In this document: one piece after another, positions 31,987 through 41,887 of the stretch | How the letters are laid out: every line of letters starts with the position of its first letter | Numbering within the stretch: position 1 is the stretch's first letter | Source: Polyangium sp. 15x6 | GTDB taxonomy: Bacteria; Myxococcota_A; Polyangia; Polyangiales; Polyangiaceae | Assembly (NCBI RefSeq): GCF_029960785.1 | Contig: NZ_JASBQE010000063.1 | Coordinates: forward strand, 1 to 64,000 | Direction of reading: 5' to 3' | Length of the DNA stretch: 64,000 nucleotides | Made by a program: the position numbers and the translations under genes | The notes under the pieces: generated by a model | Told to the model about the DNA's origin: nothing | Seen by the model: only the letters and a program-made list of their open reading frames with translations | Database searches by the model: none

Positions 31987-34602
31987 ATGCGTTCCCTCTT
32001 CATGCGCCGCACCACGTCGGGCTTCATGGTCACGGCACTTTTCCTCGGGCTCCTCGCGGGGCCCTTCGGCTGCGAGGCCGAAGAGCCCGGCGCGGCGAGC
32101 GGAGGCTCCACCGCAGACTCCTCCAGCTCGTCCACGAGCGGCAGTGGCGGCGCCGGCGGCCTGATGACGAGCTCGTCCTCGACGGGCGGAACCGGCGGCA
32201 GCGGCGGCATGGGCGGCAGCGGCGGCATGGGCGGCAGCGGCGGCATGGGCGGCAGCGGCGGCGAGGGCGGCAGCGGCGGCGCTGCCTGTGTCCCCGTCGA
32301 CGACAACGACCCCTGCACCGACGACGTCTGCGAAAACAACGAGCCTGTCCACCTCCCCGCTTCCGGCGCTGCCTGCAATGACGGGGACACGTGCACCCAA
32401 GCCGACACCTGCCAGGCCGGCGCGTGCATGGGCAAACCACTCTGCAATGGGGGCGCTACCTGCATGGCCGGCACCTGCGTCCCGGCCGCGTGCATGGGTT
32501 CGCTCGGGCTCCCTGGGCCTCCGCAGTCGCGGACGGTGAGCGATGCGACCTCCGTGGCCTCGGCGGACATCAACGGCGACGGCAAGCTCGATCTCGCGCT
32601 CACGGACGGCGTGGCCAGCCTCAAGCTCTACTTCAACCAAGGCAGCGGAACCTTCCCTTATCCGCTGTCGCTCACCGTTGGCTCGTTTCCCCACTCGGTC
32701 GCAATCGGTGACCTCACCGGCGACGGCAAACCCGACTTCGTCGTCGCGAGCTCCAACAGCCCCAACTTGGGCGTCATCGTGCAGGATGATGATTACTCGG
32801 GCGGCTACGCCCCCATGGTCAACGTCCCCGTGGGCACGGGCCCCCGGTCCGTGGCGCTTTCGGATCTGAACGGCGACGGGAAGCTCGACGCGGTCGTCGC
32901 GAACACCACCAGCAACAACATCAGCGTGCTGCTCGGCAAGGGCAATGGCTCTTTCGACCCCGCGGTCAATTACCCCGCCGGCACGGGCCCGCGAGCCGTC
33001 GTGGTCAAAGATTTGAACGACGATGGCGTGCTCGACCTGGCCGTCGCAAACTGGCTCGGCAACCAGGCGCACGTGCTCCTCGGCCAGGGAGGCGGCACCT
33101 TCGCCGCGCCGGTCCCGTACACGGTGGGCACGGATCCCCGCTCGATCGCCGCGGCGGACATCAACAACGACGGCAAACCCGACCTCGCCGTCGTCAACAA
33201 CGGCAGCGACAACGTGAGCGTGCTCTTGAACCAGGGCAATGGCACGTTCGCCGCCGCCGTCCACCAGCCCGTGGGCAACGAACCCACGGGGATCCAGGCG
33301 ACGGACCTCGACGGCGACGGCCTCATCGACCTCGCGGTCACCAATAACATCGGGTACAGCGGCGCCGCCGACGTGACGCTGCTCTTCAACAAATACGATG
33401 GCAACCAGCTACTCTTCGCCACCAAACAACACCCGGCGAGCGAGGGCGCCCAGGCGCTCGTCTCGACGGACCTCAATGGCGACGGCAAGCCCGATCTGGC
33501 CATCGCGGGCTCAACGACCAACCCGAACAGCCCGGACGACCTGACCGTGCTGCTCAACCAGGGCCAGGGCGCCTTCGGCCCGGTGGTCTACCCGACGGAG
33601 TATCAGCCGCAGCCGCTCACGGCGGCGGACGTGGACAGCGACGGCAAGCTCGACCTCGCCATCGTGAACTTCGGCAAGCAGAACGTCAGCCCCGGGCAAT
33701 TGGCCGTATTCCGCAACCTGGGTGATGGCACCTTCGGAAGCCCGGATGTCTACAGCGCCTCTCTGGGCTCCACGGGGGTCACGGCGGGCGAGCTGAACGG
33801 CGACGGCAAACCCGATGTCGTGATCTCGAACATCGTCGGCAGCGTGAGCGTACGCCTCAACCAGGGCAATGGTACGTTCGGCCTCCCGGTCGAATACCCG
33901 GTGGGCGCCGACGCCTACGCGCCCGCGGTGGCGGACCTGAATGGGGACGGGAAAAACGACCTCGCCGTCGCCGATGCCGGTAGCGACAAGGTGGCCGTGC
34001 TGTTCAACCAGGGCAATGGCACCTTCGGTGCGGCGGTCCCGTATGCCACGGGCGGCTCGCCTCGGTGGGTGATCGCGGCGGACCTGAATGGTGACGGCAA
34101 ACCGGACCTCGCCACGGCGAATTGGGATGGCGACAGCGTGAGCGTGCTCTTCAACCAGGGCGACGGCACCTTCGCCGCCAAGGTCGATTATCCTGGCATC
34201 CCGGCCGCCGTGTCCGTCGAGGCGGCGGACTTCAACGGCGACGGCAAGCTGGACCTCGCGGCGACGGGGTTTTCCGCGATCCGCGTCTATGTCTTCCTGA
34301 ACCAGGGCGACGGCACCTTCGCCGCGCCGGTGGATTATCTCGTGGGCCCGAGCCCGTGGTCGATCGCGATCGCGGACCTGAACGTCGATGGCAAGCTCGA
34401 CCTCGCGGTGGCCAACAGCGACAACGCGACGGTCAGCGCGCTGCTCGGCAACGGCGACGGTACGTTCGGCGAGCAGGCGAGATACCCCGTGGGCCCGAAT
34501 CCGAGGGCGGTCATCGCGGCGGACTTCTCTGGCGACGGCCGGCCCGACCTCGCGTTCGAGGCCACGAACCTGGTGGTCCTCACGAACGTCTGCTTGCCCT
34601 GA
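31987..34602 (+). CDS. FG-GAP/VCBS-repeat beta-propeller lipoprotein
   Basis: 871 aa. The signal peptide ends in the lipobox GPFGC (about residue 20). A Ser/Gly linker follows with a perfect GGSGGM-type repeat (18-bp DNA units near 32205-32260), then a Cys-rich module with about 14 cysteines (residues 98-175). From about residue 190 there are roughly a dozen FG-GAP/VCBS repeats of the form ADLNGDGKPDLAVVN, each with an Asp-rich calcium loop, probably forming two seven-bladed propellers. Expected at the cell surface, possibly in adhesion or carbohydrate binding; ligand unknown. Confidence 0.92.
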   Translation: MRSLFMRRTTSGFMVTALFLGLLAGPFGCEAEEPGAASGGSTADSSSSSTSGSGGAGGLMTSSSSTGGTGGSGGMGGSGGMGGSGGMGGSGGEGGSGGAACVPVDDNDPCTDDVCENNEPVHLPASGAACNDGDTCTQADTCQAGACMGKPLCNGGATCMAGTCVPAACMGSLGLPGPPQSRTVSDATSVASADINGDGKLDLALTDGVASLKLYFNQGSGTFPYPLSLTVGSFPHSVAIGDLTGDGKPDFVVASSNSPNLGVIVQDDDYSGGYAPMVNVPVGTGPRSVALSDLNGDGKLDAVVANTTSNNISVLLGKGNGSFDPAVNYPAGTGPRAVVVKDLNDDGVLDLAVANWLGNQAHVLLGQGGGTFAAPVPYTVGTDPRSIAAADINNDGKPDLAVVNNGSDNVSVLLNQGNGTFAAAVHQPVGNEPTGIQATDLDGDGLIDLAVTNNIGYSGAADVTLLFNKYDGNQLLFATKQHPASEGAQALVSTDLNGDGKPDLAIAGSTTNPNSPDDLTVLLNQGQGAFGPVVYPTEYQPQPLTAADVDSDGKLDLAIVNFGKQNVSPGQLAVFRNLGDGTFGSPDVYSASLGSTGVTAGELNGDGKPDVVISNIVGSVSVRLNQGNGTFGLPVEYPVGADAYAPAVADLNGDGKNDLAVADAGSDKVAVLFNQGNGTFGAAVPYATGGSPRWVIAADLNGDGKPDLATANWDGDSVSVLFNQGDGTFAAKVDYPGIPAAVSVEAADFNGDGKLDLAATGFSAIRVYVFLNQGDGTFAAPVDYLVGPSPWSIAIADLNVDGKLDLAVANSDNATVSALLGNGDGTFGEQARYPVGPNPRAVIAADFSGDGRPDLAFEATNLVVLTNVCLP

Positions 34603-35874: not shown

Positions 35875-36109
35875 TAACTCATGGCTCCGGTTCTGCGGGG
35901 TCGTGGGTGAGACGCCGGTCGGTGTGATAGCGCCGGCTGGCGTCGCTTGCTTTGTCTCATGATTTGCGGTTGAAGGCAATTGCAAACGATGGGATTGGTT
36001 CGTCGGCGGAACGCCCACGATCCACGGCGAATGGTGCGACGGGCGCTGGAATGGGAGCCGTGATCCTGCCTCACCCCCCGTTTCGGGAGAGGGGCGAGGG
36101 AGGCTTCTC

Positions 36110-36439: not shown

Positions 36440-36948
36440 GATGATTCCTCCGCCCGACGACCCAATCGCCGGGACCCCCGTCCCGCACCGTCGCGCGGAG
36501 GCCTCTTCAAGGCTGCGCAGCACCGCGCGGAGCCGCCCGGAGCGCGAAGCGCGAGGACGGCGAGCACGGCTTGGCCTTGAAGAGGCCGAGCACGACGGTA
36601 CGCTCGCCGTCCCCGAGCGGAGCCCCTGCATACTGTTCCCCAAGCGCACGCACACGCACACGCGCACGCGCACGCGCCTCCGCCTCCGCCTCCGCCTCCG
36701 CCTCCGCCTCCGCCTCCGCCTCCGCCTCCGCTTCCGCCTCCGCCTCCGCCTCCCATTCCTTCACCAGCGCTCCTCGGCCGCACGCGCCGACGCTGCGGGG
36801 CACGTAGCCCAGCATACGCCTTGAATGGCGCAACTACTTCAATGCCCCATCCCGCAAAGTTTGGTAGGCTCGTTGTTTGGCTCGAGCGGAGGGCATCGCC
36901 CCGCCCTGCCCGAGACGTTTCCTCGGTCACTCTTCGGTGGTCTTCTTG
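36440..36948. other. Gene-free region holding the second simple-repeat array
   Basis: About 510 bp between the divergent four-helix-bundle gene and the large kinase-like gene. It must contain the kinase-like gene's promoter. Apart from the repeat array at 36642-36753, nothing gene-like is seen. Confidence 0.55.
36642..36753 (-). repeat. Composite simple repeat, inverted copy: 13 GCCTCC units plus GCACGC-rich tract
   Basis: Reverse complement of the array at 35434-35513. It has 13 hexamers (one variant GCTTCC at 36730-36735) preceded by an alternating GCGCAC/ACACGC tract from 36642. The hexamer number differs between copies (7 versus 13), as expected from slippage. Confidence 0.9.
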
Positions 36949-39900
36949 ATGCTCGACATTGCAGGGTATACAGCCTTCGAACGCGTCGAAATAACGCCGT
37001 TCGCGAAGACGTTTCGCGCGCGGCGGGTGCATGACGGCCTGCCCGTCGTGCTCCAAAGCCTGTCCATCGGACGCGCCCGGAGCGCCGAGATCGCGCGATT
37101 CAAACACGAGTACGCGCAACTCGCGCAGCTCAGCTTGCAAAGCCTCGTTTCCGTCCTCGGCGTAGAGGCGCGTGAAGACAGCCTCATCGTCATACGCGAA
37201 CACTTCCCAGGCCGAACCCTCGCCCACACCCTCGCCGCGCGCCCAGGCAACAAGCTCCCCGTCTCCGAGGCCCTCGCCATCGCCACCGCGATCGCCGAAG
37301 CCCTCGCCGCCCTGCACGGACGCGGCATCACCCACCGCGATGTCCGCCCCCAGAACATCCTCGTCGGCGATGCAGGCGCGCTCAAGCTCACCGGCTCCGG
37401 CGTCGACGCCGAGGTCACGCGCGCACACGAGCGACTCTACGCGTACGAGGTCCTCCACGACGTCCTGCCCTACACCGCGCCCGAGCAAACCGGCCGCATG
37501 AACCGCAGCGTCGACCACCGCGCGGATCTCTACGCCCTCGGCATCATCCTCTACGAAGCCCTCACGGGTCGTCGCCCCTTCGAGGCCCGCGAGCCCATGG
37601 AGCTCATCCACGCGCACCTCGCCCTTCAGGCCAAACCCCCCGCGCACATCGACAGCTCGGTGCCCGAGACCCTCTCGCGTCTCATCCTCAAGCTGCTCGA
37701 GAAAAACGCCGAAGACCGCTACCAAAGCGCCGAAGGCCTGCTCGCCGACCTGCGCCGCTGCAGCCACGAACTCGAGACCCTCGGCACGATCTCCCTCTTC
37801 ACGCCCGCCGAGCACGACCACGAAGGCGGGCTGCGCATCCACCAGAAGCTCTACGGTCGCGAGCGCGACATCGACGCGCTCACCTCGACCTTCACACGCT
37901 CGCTCGGCGGCAACCGCTCCATCGTCCTCGTCTCCGGTTACTCGGGCATCGGCAAATCCGCGCTCGTGCACGAGATCCTCAAGCCACTCGCCCGCGCGAA
38001 GGGCTACTACACGAGCGGCAAATTCGATCAGTTCAACCGCGACACCCCCTACAGCGCCATCATCCAGGCCTTCGACGGCCTCGTGCGGCAGATCCTCACC
38101 GAGAGCACCGAGCGGATCCAAGCGTGGCAGCGCGCATGGCTCGAGGCGCTCGGACAAAACGGCCAGGTCATCTGCGACGTCCTGCCCTCGATGGCACACG
38201 TGCTCGGCCCGCAGCCAGTCGTGCCCGCGCTCGGACCCGTCGAGGCGCAAAACCGCCTGAGCCGATGCTTCGTGCAGTTCGTCTCGGTCGTCGCGCGCAG
38301 GGCCCACCCGCTCGTGTTTTTCCTCGACGACTTGCAGTGGATCGACCTCGCGAGCCTCGACCTCCTGCGCGCCCTGCTCGCCGACGACTCCCTCGAGTCG
38401 TTCTTCTTCTGCGGCGCCTACCGCGACAACGAAGTCTCCCCCGCCCACCCGTTCATCGCGGCGCTCGAAGAGCACAAACGCGCAGGCCTCTCCGTCTGCG
38501 ACATCGTCCTCGGCCCGCTCGAGCGTCGTCACATCGTCGACTTGCTCAGCGACAGCCTGCGGCGCTCGGACACCGGCCCGCTCGCCGACGCCATCCTCAA
38601 AAAAACCGCCGGCAACCCCTTCTTCGTCCGCCGCTTCTTGCACTCGCTCGGCGACCACGGCGTGCTCACCTTCAAGCCCGGGACGGGTTTTTACTGGGAC
38701 CTCAAACGACTCGACGAGCTCGCCTACAGCGAAAACGTCGTCGATCTGATGGTGCGCACCATCGCCCGCCTGCCGAAAACCACGCAGGAAGCCCTCCGCC
38801 TCGCCGCCGCCATCGGGAGCGAGTTCGACCTCGGCGTGCTCGCCACCGTGCTCGAATGTACGCCCGAACAGGCCTACGGCCGCCTCGAGCCCGCCGCCGC
38901 TGAAGGGCTCATCATCCCGGGCAGGAGCGGCTACCGCTTCGCTCACGACAAGGTCCAGGAAGGCGCGTACGCGATGATCCCGGTCGCAGGCCGGCCCGCG
39001 TTTCACCTGCGCATCGGCAGGCTGCTCGCCGAGAGCACGCCCTTGTCCGAGAGCCGCAACCTCTTCGACGTGGTCGGCCACCTGAACAGCGCGCTCGAGC
39101 TCATTGACGATCCACACGAACGCGAGTCGCTCGCCCGAATGAACCTCGTCGCCGCCACGCGAGCCGAAGAATCCGCCGCGTTTGGCGCCGCGCGCAGCTT
39201 CCTCGAACTCGGCCTGCAATGCCTCCCCGAAGATGCCTGGACGTCGAAGCATCAACTCCGCCTCGCCTACGCGAGGAAGCTCGGCGTCACGCTGTCCTTG
39301 CTCGGCCATCACGATGACGCGCTAGCCGCGCTCGGAGAGGCCCTCGAGCGCGCCACGACGAGGCTCGCTCGAACCGAGATCCTGCGGCTCAAGATGAAAG
39401 CGCAGGTGCTCAAGAACGACCTGCCCGCGGCGCTCGCCGAGGGGCTCGAGGTGATGCACTCCTTCGGCCTCGACCTGCCCGCGTTCCCGGACGAAGCGAC
39501 GCTCGAGGAGCAGATGCGCGTGACACTCGACCTCGTCGTCGAGCGCTCGCCCGAAGCGCTCCTCGACCTGCCGCCGCTCGAGGACCCCGAGATCGCCGCG
39601 CTGCTCGAGGTCCTGGAGGAGCTGTTCGCGCCGACGTACTTCCTCGCGACGAACAACTTCAGCATCAGCATCGCCAAGATCCTCGAGCTGTCCTACCGCC
39701 ATGGTTTGTCGCGAAGCACGACCTACGGCTGTATCAATTTCGGCATGCTCTTGTGCGTCCGCGGACATATCAAGCTTGGCTACGAGCTTGGCCGCATCGC
39801 TGTCAGGCTCGGCGAGAAGCTCGGCGACAAGAAGAACGAAGCGATGATCCGCAACATGTGGGGTGGCTTCGTCCAGTACTGGGGAGACGGCTACAGCGCT

Positions 39901-41874
39901 TGCTGGGACACGTTGATCAGGGGCAAGGACGCGGGCCTGGAGACAGGCCAGTACATCTGGTCGTTCTACAACACGGTCAACGCCGTCACGAACAGCTTCA
40001 TGCGCGGTTTGCCCATCGAGGACATCATCGCCGAGGCGAAGAGCTACCAGCCGATCCGCAAGCTCGACCGCTTCGACGCGATCACCTGGATGGCCGGCGC
40101 GGCCGGACAGATCGCCTACAACCTCTCGGTCGAGACAGACGACCCCTGCCGCCTCGTCGGGCCCCTCGTGGACATCGAGGAGGTCATCGCCGCGTGTCGC
40201 CGGATCAAGAACGAAAGCGCGTTCTTCTTCGCGCAGCTCTACATCGTCTTTTTGCTCGTCTTCCAGGGCGCCTTCGAGGAGGCGGCGCGCGTCGTGCTCG
40301 AGTCGAACCCCGAGCTCGTCAGCATCGCGGTCTGGCACGGCACGCCTGTTTTCCGCGCCTACGCGGCCCTCGCGCTCACGCGCGCCTCGACGAGCGCCGC
40401 GCCTGAAGAGCGCGCGGTCATGCTCTCGCGCGCCGCGGCCTACGCGGAGAAGCTCGATGCTTGGGCGGAGATCTGTCCGGAAAACTTCGCCCCCCGCGCG
40501 GCCTTGGTTCGCGCCGAGCTCGCCCGCGCCCGCGGCGAAGACAGGTTCGTGACGGCGGAGCTCTACGACACTGCGATCTCGCTCGCGCATTCCGGCGGCT
40601 ACATCCATGACGAGGCGCTCGCGAACGAGCTGTGCGCGAGGCACTGGATGGACGCCGGGAAAACGACGCTCGCGCGCGCTCACCTCAGCGAGGCGCGCCG
40701 GCTCTATGCCCGCTGGGGCGCAACCGTTGCCTCGCGCCGCCTCGCCCGCGCCTATCCCGATCTTGTCGCGCGCGACGAGACGTTCGACGCGCCCTTGCCG
40801 AGCACGCCTGCGCCTTCGGCGGACGCCCTGGACATCGGGTCGGTACTCAAGGCGGCGCAAGCGATCTCGGGCGAGATCGTGCTGCCCCGACTGATCGACG
40901 CCCTCTTGCGCGTGGCGCTGGAGAACGCCGGCGCGCGGCGAGGGGTCTTGCTCCTTTTGCGGGATGGTAGCCTCGTCGTCGAAGCGGAGCAGCGCGCGTT
41001 TGGCGAGGAAGACGCGCCTGCATCGACGGCGATCGAGCGAGATCTCGGGCAACGCTCGGATCTGCCTGCGACCGTGCTCGCGTACGTGGCGCGCACGCGT
41101 GAGAGCGTGCTCCTGGAGGATCGCGCGCAGGATGGCCCCTTTGGGCTCGACCCTTACCTCGTGGACGCGCCTCCGCGCTCGGCGCTGGCTGCGCCCATCA
41201 TCGGCAAAGGTCGGCTTTCGGGCGTGATTTATCTGGAGAATGACCTCGCGCGGGGAGCATTCACGCCTGCGCGGGTCGAGGTGGTGGGGCTCATCTGCAC
41301 GCAGGCTGCGATCGCGATCGAGAATGCGCGGTTGTATGGGGAGCTGGAGCGGCAGGTGGAGGAGCGGACGGCGGAGCTACGGCACGCGAATGAGGCGCTC
41401 GTTCGTTTGAGTCGCGCCGAGCAGGAGCGCAGGGAGCAGGAGGCTCTCGACCAGCGCGCGGTCATCAGCCAGCAGGAGGAGGTGATCCATGCGCTGTCGG
41501 CGCCGATCATCGAGGTCTGGTACGGGGTTATCGCGGTCCCGCTGGTGGGGGTGCTCGACGCGCGGCGGGGCGAGGAGATCATGGAGCGGGTGCTGCATCG
41601 GATTGGCTCCGCTTCGTGTCGCCAGCTGATCCTTGATTTGACGGGTGTGGAGAGCGTCGATTCCGAGACGGGCGAGCGCATCATGCGGATTGTCGGCGCG
41701 ACGCGGCTGCTCGGGGCGAGCGTGGTGATCACGGGGATTCGCGCGGCCGTTGCGCAGACGATGGTGGCGTTCGACGCGGGCCTGAAGGAGCTGACGACGC
41801 GGGCGACGCTGCGGGACGCGCTGCGCGCGTATATGCGGTCGGAGGGTGCAGGGGGATTTTCGACGCGGAGGTGA
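36949..41874 (+). CDS. Giant signalling protein: pseudokinase - AAA/NACHT-like ATPase - helical repeats - GAF - STAS
   Basis: About 1641 aa. The N-terminal protein-kinase fold (1-275) keeps HRDVRPQN (129-136), but the usual ATP-binding Lys is Gln36 (LPVVLQSL) and the DFG position reads GSG (149-151). A large ATPase follows, with Walker A SGYSGIGKS (329-337) and Walker B-like VFFLDDLQWID. A long helical-repeat region comes next, then a GAF domain (about 1330-1480) and a short coiled coil. A C-terminal STAS domain (LILDLTGVESVDSETGERI, GIRAAVAQTMVAF) resembles RsbR stressosome proteins. Related proteins of this layout usually end in a histidine kinase; here STAS replaces it. ATG 36949 is chosen at the start of the kinase fold; a TTG at 36877 is possible. 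Confidence 0.9.
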   Translation: MLDIAGYTAFERVEITPFAKTFRARRVHDGLPVVLQSLSIGRARSAEIARFKHEYAQLAQLSLQSLVSVLGVEAREDSLIVIREHFPGRTLAHTLAARPGNKLPVSEALAIATAIAEALAALHGRGITHRDVRPQNILVGDAGALKLTGSGVDAEVTRAHERLYAYEVLHDVLPYTAPEQTGRMNRSVDHRADLYALGIILYEALTGRRPFEAREPMELIHAHLALQAKPPAHIDSSVPETLSRLILKLLEKNAEDRYQSAEGLLADLRRCSHELETLGTISLFTPAEHDHEGGLRIHQKLYGRERDIDALTSTFTRSLGGNRSIVLVSGYSGIGKSALVHEILKPLARAKGYYTSGKFDQFNRDTPYSAIIQAFDGLVRQILTESTERIQAWQRAWLEALGQNGQVICDVLPSMAHVLGPQPVVPALGPVEAQNRLSRCFVQFVSVVARRAHPLVFFLDDLQWIDLASLDLLRALLADDSLESFFFCGAYRDNEVSPAHPFIAALEEHKRAGLSVCDIVLGPLERRHIVDLLSDSLRRSDTGPLADAILKKTAGNPFFVRRFLHSLGDHGVLTFKPGTGFYWDLKRLDELAYSENVVDLMVRTIARLPKTTQEALRLAAAIGSEFDLGVLATVLECTPEQAYGRLEPAAAEGLIIPGRSGYRFAHDKVQEGAYAMIPVAGRPAFHLRIGRLLAESTPLSESRNLFDVVGHLNSALELIDDPHERESLARMNLVAATRAEESAAFGAARSFLELGLQCLPEDAWTSKHQLRLAYARKLGVTLSLLGHHDDALAALGEALERATTRLARTEILRLKMKAQVLKNDLPAALAEGLEVMHSFGLDLPAFPDEATLEEQMRVTLDLVVERSPEALLDLPPLEDPEIAALLEVLEELFAPTYFLATNNFSISIAKILELSYRHGLSRSTTYGCINFGMLLCVRGHIKLGYELGRIAVRLGEKLGDKKNEAMIRNMWGGFVQYWGDGYSACWDTLIRGKDAGLETGQYIWSFYNTVNAVTNSFMRGLPIEDIIAEAKSYQPIRKLDRFDAITWMAGAAGQIAYNLSVETDDPCRLVGPLVDIEEVIAACRRIKNESAFFFAQLYIVFLLVFQGAFEEAARVVLESNPELVSIAVWHGTPVFRAYAALALTRASTSAAPEERAVMLSRAAAYAEKLDAWAEICPENFAPRAALVRAELARARGEDRFVTAELYDTAISLAHSGGYIHDEALANELCARHWMDAGKTTLARAHLSEARRLYARWGATVASRRLARAYPDLVARDETFDAPLPSTPAPSADALDIGSVLKAAQAISGEIVLPRLIDALLRVALENAGARRGVLLLLRDGSLVVEAEQRAFGEEDAPASTAIERDLGQRSDLPATVLAYVARTRESVLLEDRAQDGPFGLDPYLVDAPPRSALAAPIIGKGRLSGVIYLENDLARGAFTPARVEVVGLICTQAAIAIENARLYGELERQVEERTAELRHANEALVRLSRAEQERREQEALDQRAVISQQEEVIHALSAPIIEVWYGVIAVPLVGVLDARRGEEIMERVLHRIGSASCRQLILDLTGVESVDSETGERIMRIVGATRLLGASVVITGIRAAVAQTMVAFDAGLKELTTRATLRDALRAYMRSEGAGGFSTRR

Positions 41875-41887
41875 AAACCCCTTTTCT

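Follow-up and report, generated by a model that had tools for sequence, protein, structure and literature searches.

The window, a 64,000-nucleotide stretch of DNA from Polyangium sp. 15x6, carries on its forward strand an uninterrupted reading frame from an ATG at 36949 to a stop codon ending at 41874, which encodes a protein of 1641 amino acids. Pfam and NCBIfam place in it, from the N to the C terminus, a Pkinase domain (residues 18–261), an AAA_16 domain (300–482), TPR_CHK1-like helices, a GAF domain (GAF_2, 1314–1458) and a STAS domain (1521–1624). A histidine kinase (HK) segment was looked for in the 1641-residue protein and none was found, the C-terminal end being the STAS domain. The features, in window coordinates, are the following.

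36949..41874, + strand: coding sequence of the pseudokinase-STAND-TPR-GAF-STAS protein, 1641 aa, with orthologs in five congeners.
36949..37803, + strand: kinase-fold domain, residues 1–285 (pseudokinase); Pfam E 6.6e-31, AlphaFold2 (AF2) pLDDT 89.4, PknB/Stk1 fold.
37054..37056, + strand: Gln36 at the position of the ATP-binding beta-3 Lys; Lys in 48/49 relatives, Gln in 6/6 Polyangium orthologs.
37333..37341, + strand: HRD motif, residues 129–131, intact in the alignment, as is Asn136.
37393..37401, + strand: GSG, residues 149–151, replacing DFG; the Asp is absent from 35/35 readable rows of a 36-row pseudokinase clade.
37834..39048, + strand: STAND-type ATPase, residues about 296–700; AAA_16 E 2.5e-39, motifs intact, match to 6mfv at E 2.2e-12.
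37936..37959, + strand: P-loop motif GYSGIGKS, residues 330–337.
38317..38346, + strand: Walker B motif FFLDDLQWID, residues 457–466.
39049..40818, + strand: TPR-like all-helical region, residues 701–1290; helical repeats in the AF2 model (pLDDT about 90), Pfam TPR_CHK1 E 1.5e-9.
40888..41322, + strand: GAF domain, residues 1314–1458; Pfam E 1.8e-14.
41323..41460, + strand: signalling-helix linker, residues 1459–1504, of one type in the clade's STAS-ended members and another in HK-ended sisters.
41461..41838, + strand: RsbR-type STAS domain, residues 1505–1630 ('LSAPIIEVW' type); RsbR-type chain of 7o0i at E 1.3e-24, Pfam E 1.6e-9.
41560..41562, + strand: Ala1538 at the position of RsbRA T171 / Listeria RsbR T175 (PDB numbering), site lost.
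41662..41664, + strand: Ser1572 at the position of RsbRA T205 / Listeria RsbR T209 (PDB numbering), site kept as Ser.

Upstream of the gene lie an FG-GAP repeat protein with 13 repeats (window 31987–34599) and a strong terminator-like hairpin of 15 pairs (window 35911–35944). Orthologs were present in all five Polyangium congeners, four at 98% protein identity and one at 71%. The DNA of the gene was 94–98% identical to that of four congeners, with flanks that were mostly non-homologous or alike in short pieces (window 36700–41880) and with unrelated neighbouring genes that varied between congeners. Since other orthologs of the family showed 86–97% DNA identity, a recent exchange of this gene between species is possible. 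One ortholog (G005, L313 about 11130) was split into two frames by the loss of one base near codon 1367, either a genuine break or an error of sequencing.

The sequence-only reading had held that the kinase has lost both its ATP-binding lysine and the Asp of DFG, and both losses were confirmed in an alignment with 49 relatives drawn from the public genome collection: Gln36 occupies the beta-3 Lys column and Gly149 the DFG Asp column, where 42 of the 49 keep Asp. The DFG Asp was likewise absent from all six Polyangium sequences (window gene included), GSG being exact in five and GFG standing in G005. Other catalytic residues were retained (His129 and Asp131 of HRD, Asn136 and Glu54 of helix C). 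An intact lysine elsewhere in the fold did not emerge from the sequences: Lys20, the sole nearby N-lobe candidate, was rejected as a replacement, since the 71% ortholog (L057) has Ser there and most of the family a hydrophobic residue. In the AF2 model (pTM 0.88), residues 1–285 are nonetheless predicted to be a folded kinase-like domain, because the closest structures are PknB and Stk1, at Z about 31. The dN/dS of the kinase part, 0.16–0.60 in close congener pairs and 0.34 in the pair with the 71% ortholog, was similar to that of other domains and thus points to purifying selection rather than decay.

Downstream of the kinase fold, the STAND motifs were intact: besides the P-loop and a Walker B with its second acid, we found the downstream Arg (AYRDNE) and GNP (GNPFF) motifs, with helical repeats following the ATPase. 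AF2 modelled the STAND and TPR part at pLDDT 88, and its top PDB match was 6mfv, a TPR-bearing STAND ATPase which it resembles in ATPase motifs and fold but which differs in that the STAND module of the window protein lies between a pseudokinase and GAF-STAS. The domain order kinase, AAA/STAND, TPR-like helices and GAF is that of the cyanobacterial dual kinases HstK / cbSTKIII (PMC2176072, PMC1262709), and HstK-type relatives in cyanobacteria aligned over nearly their full length at 32–37% identity. In contrast to the window protein, HstK / cbSTKIII have a histidine kinase at the C terminus and a kinase domain of the KD type; loss of the Lys and the DFG Asp was seen in few of the 49 aligned relatives.

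The C-terminal domain is, as judged by homology, closest to RsbR/YtvA and was on that ground assigned an RsbR-type fold: it matched the RsbR-type chain of 7o0i at 35% identity, and the YtvA_fam model at E 8.2e-22, a match under that model's cut-off. The layout proposed from the sequence, a pseudokinase followed by STAND, GAF and an RsbR-type STAS, was thus borne out by the Pfam domains and the structural match. As in the RsbR / YtvA co-antagonists, a helix precedes the STAS domain; unlike them, the protein carries about 1500 amino acids of N-terminal sequence in place of a globin-like or LOV input, and Ala at the T171/T175 site. The two RsbT sites were placed on Ala1538 and Ser1572 by PDB alignment numbering, in which Listeria RsbR T175/T209 correspond to RsbRA T171/T205 (PMC6614362, PMC3944199). 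T1604, tried as a switch site, corresponds to Listeria T241 in that numbering and was rejected. The 71% ortholog has Asp at the Ala1538 position and Thr at the Ser1572 position, and the T209 position was Ser or Thr in all five ortholog sequences examined. Thus, of the conserved switch surface on which the sequence-only reading had made its case depend, the T205/T209 position stood and the T171/T175 position did not. Ser/Thr at both sites was found in none of 17 STAS domains of the pseudokinase clade, in 6/47 other fused STAS domains and in 15/30 stand-alone STAS proteins. The STAS part showed a dN/dS of 0.12–0.35.

The protein had been presented as a singular departure from a layout that usually ends in a histidine kinase; it proved to be one of 14 STAS-ended paralogs in its own genome, which also encodes, on the same body, 13 HisKA-ended members, one HWE-ended member and two cut by contig ends. 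The HK-ended sisters in this genome share 62–65% identity over residues 5–1513. Relatives elsewhere in the order bear still other endings on the kinase-STAND-GAF body, namely class III cyclase, SpoIIE-type PP2C and GGDEF, as judged by eye from the sequences (L077, L080–L084, L086, L089–L092, L171). Besides Polyangium, genus g82, G120 and two further families of the class have STAS-ended members, and no STAS ending was found among 80 loci of a named-genome scan (mostly cyanobacteria). Three further loci (L039, L048, L142) form a second STAS-ended lineage, with an EVW-type STAS and a kinase domain that is reduced or gone. Two HK-ended members stand in tandem at L029 2105–13836, and in Polyangium sp. 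6x1 a stand-alone STAS protein lies upstream of an HK-ended member (L231 5401–6466).

In a family tree of 121 proteins, built with kinase and output columns excluded, the distribution of STAS required nine changes, of which supported branches force eight. The window gene and its orthologs were sister to HisKA-ended proteins (100%) within a 36-row clade (100%), of which no member kept the DFG Asp, whatever its output (one kinase, L165, was unreadable, hence the 35 readable rows). The suggestion that loss of this Asp goes with a STAS output therefore failed, HK-ended sisters lacking it too. In a careful tree of 23 clade members, HisKA-ended and HWE-ended proteins each formed one clade and STAS occupied every other branch, the order of the deepest branches not being resolved by the tree. 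Since this is the pattern seen, STAS is most parsimoniously the ancestral ending of the pseudokinase clade, and HK and HWE would be later replacements, which reverses the expectation that STAS had here taken the place of a histidine kinase. A single origin of all fused STAS domains, a group defined by architecture and not by the tree, was rejected (p-AU 0.002), which indicates that fused STAS was acquired at least twice; a single origin of the pseudokinase-clade STAS was not rejected (p-AU 0.71). STAS-ended members of the clade share one linker type and an 'LSxPIIEVW'-like start, which most of the stand-alone RsbR-like proteins examined also have, and most other STAS fusions start with 'LSTPLIPIT'. 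A defective kinase was found under 16/16 'EVW'-type STAS fusions versus 10/44 of the other type, a comparison that rests on about two lineages and that we treat as a pattern only. The idea that a STAS output goes with a lost ATP Lys was also tested and rejected: the raw counts (17/60 STAS-ended versus 3/61 others) left, after correction for kinship, eight independent pairs with a median p of 0.5.

RsbS/RsbT partners, proposed as something to look for in the genome, were found there. The source genome holds 109 STAS domains and only three stand-alone RsbT-like kinases, numbers consistent with a single core shared by many sensors. One locus (C261) encodes, with names assigned by reading the translations, a PAS-RsbR, an RsbS (Ser at the S59 position), an RsbT-like kinase, an RsbX-like phosphatase and a second RsbT-like protein; its RsbS-RsbT core was found in all six Polyangium (RsbT 96–97% identical), and two genus g82 genomes and G120 have related loci. 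A second RsbR-RsbR-RsbS-RsbT-RsbX-like locus (C42, L210 2028–6427) has Ala at the RsbS S59 position; no close copy of it was found in congeners, and it may have been acquired, or the contig may be a contaminant. The window gene is near neither locus.

Taking these data together, we propose that the protein serves through its STAS domain as an accessory, YtvA-like input of a pseudokinase-STAND sensor to the stressosome, a reading to which we assign a probability of about 0.5. It would act as a cytoplasmic one-protein sensor, in which the STAND ATPase, the TPR-like helices and the GAF domain would sense a ligand or partner and change state with ATP, and in which the kinase-fold domain, no longer a normal kinase, may cover the STAND module as a lid with an allosteric or docking role. 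The change of state would pass via the GAF-STAS helix into the RsbR-type STAS, which would dock with RsbS in the stressosome built from the C261 core genes, and would alter the amount of RsbT held or released. With Ala1538 in place of the priming phosphosite, the protein would give its output by conformation or via Ser1572 and not by phosphorylation at T171, the usual route. In B. subtilis strains that have the full set of RsbR proteins, signalling is almost lost with T171A, but in a minimal stressosome some of it survives without T171 (PMC3944199), which makes an RsbR-type subunit without a T171-type site conceivable. YtvA, an RsbR-family member for which only a positive role is known (PMC3944199), would by analogy be the nearest functional model for this STAS domain. 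We infer a role like that of an accessory RsbR-family subunit and do not claim an RsbRA-type co-antagonist; moreover, an N-terminal part of about 1500 amino acids is unlikely to find room at every RsbR position in the shell of a stressosome. Against the stressosome-input reading stand the lack of genetic linkage to an RsbS/RsbT locus, the Ala at the T171-type site and the finding that no STAS domain of the clade has both sites.

Some of the same observations would suit a protein that acts as a decoy or hetero-oligomer partner of the HK-ended sisters, its STAS tail lowering or redirecting HK output with no stressosome role. STAND, TPR and GAF parts about 63% identical to those of sisters in the same genome would make co-assembly possible, the HK and HWE endings each arose once beside STAS relatives, and the RsbT sites are poorly conserved in the clade's STAS; however, the constraint on the STAS domain, the Ser/Thr kept at the T209 position in 5/5 orthologs examined and linker sequences that differ between HK- and STAS-ended proteins make this improbable. 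The absence of linkage to RsbST, together with the numerous HATPase_c_2 matches in this genome and the relatives in which this body carries a SpoIIE-type output, could instead point to a STAS domain that partners another anti-sigma-type kinase or phosphatase (HATPase_c_2, SpoIIE-type) or forms its own assembly, outside an RsbS/RsbT stressosome. We consider this unlikely, as the STAS is of the RsbR type, which forms stressosomes elsewhere, and most of the HATPase_c_2 matches fall within long frames, which is what histidine kinases would give. That the kinase domain is still active in an unconventional way, either independently of Mg or by means of another lysine, and phosphorylates the STAS of its own protein or of partners is very improbable, even with Asp131, Asn136 and Glu54 retained and with CASK as a precedent for an active kinase lacking the DFG Asp, because the ATP Lys is also missing, no conserved N-lobe lysine substitutes for it (Lys20 being Ser in L057) and the glycine-rich loop is poor in the family-wide consensus.

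Returning to the stressosome-input reading, a wider version of it is tentative and rather doubtful as a whole: a long-lived pseudokinase-STAND clade would have had an ancestral stressosome STAS without the priming phosphosite and gained HK outputs twice, so that STAND modules would be wired into stressosomes without sensor phosphorylation, at least a dozen giant inputs competing per RsbS/RsbT core. Domain shuffling among HK-ended cyanobacterial relatives had been noted earlier (PMC2176072), and kinase-COG1366 (STAS) fusions were stated in 2010 for Sorangium cellulosum, with 71 COG1366 proteins in its genome (PMC2887360). That paper gives the fusion one sentence, contains none of the words pseudokinase, inactive and AAA, and does not treat a dead kinase, a STAND part, the history of the clade or the loss of the site. 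In an incomplete literature search we found no description of the pseudokinase clade, the two STAS acquisitions, the reversed output order or the loss of the RsbT site, which we report here as new.

If docking holds, the protein would join STAND ATPase switches and the stressosome, two signalling worlds that are seldom linked. The family is moreover a natural experiment, in which one sensor body carries STAS, HisKA, HWE, PP2C, cyclase or GGDEF ends over a kinase that is intact or not, and comparing or swapping these ends can test what a bacterial pseudokinase and the RsbR phosphosite contribute.
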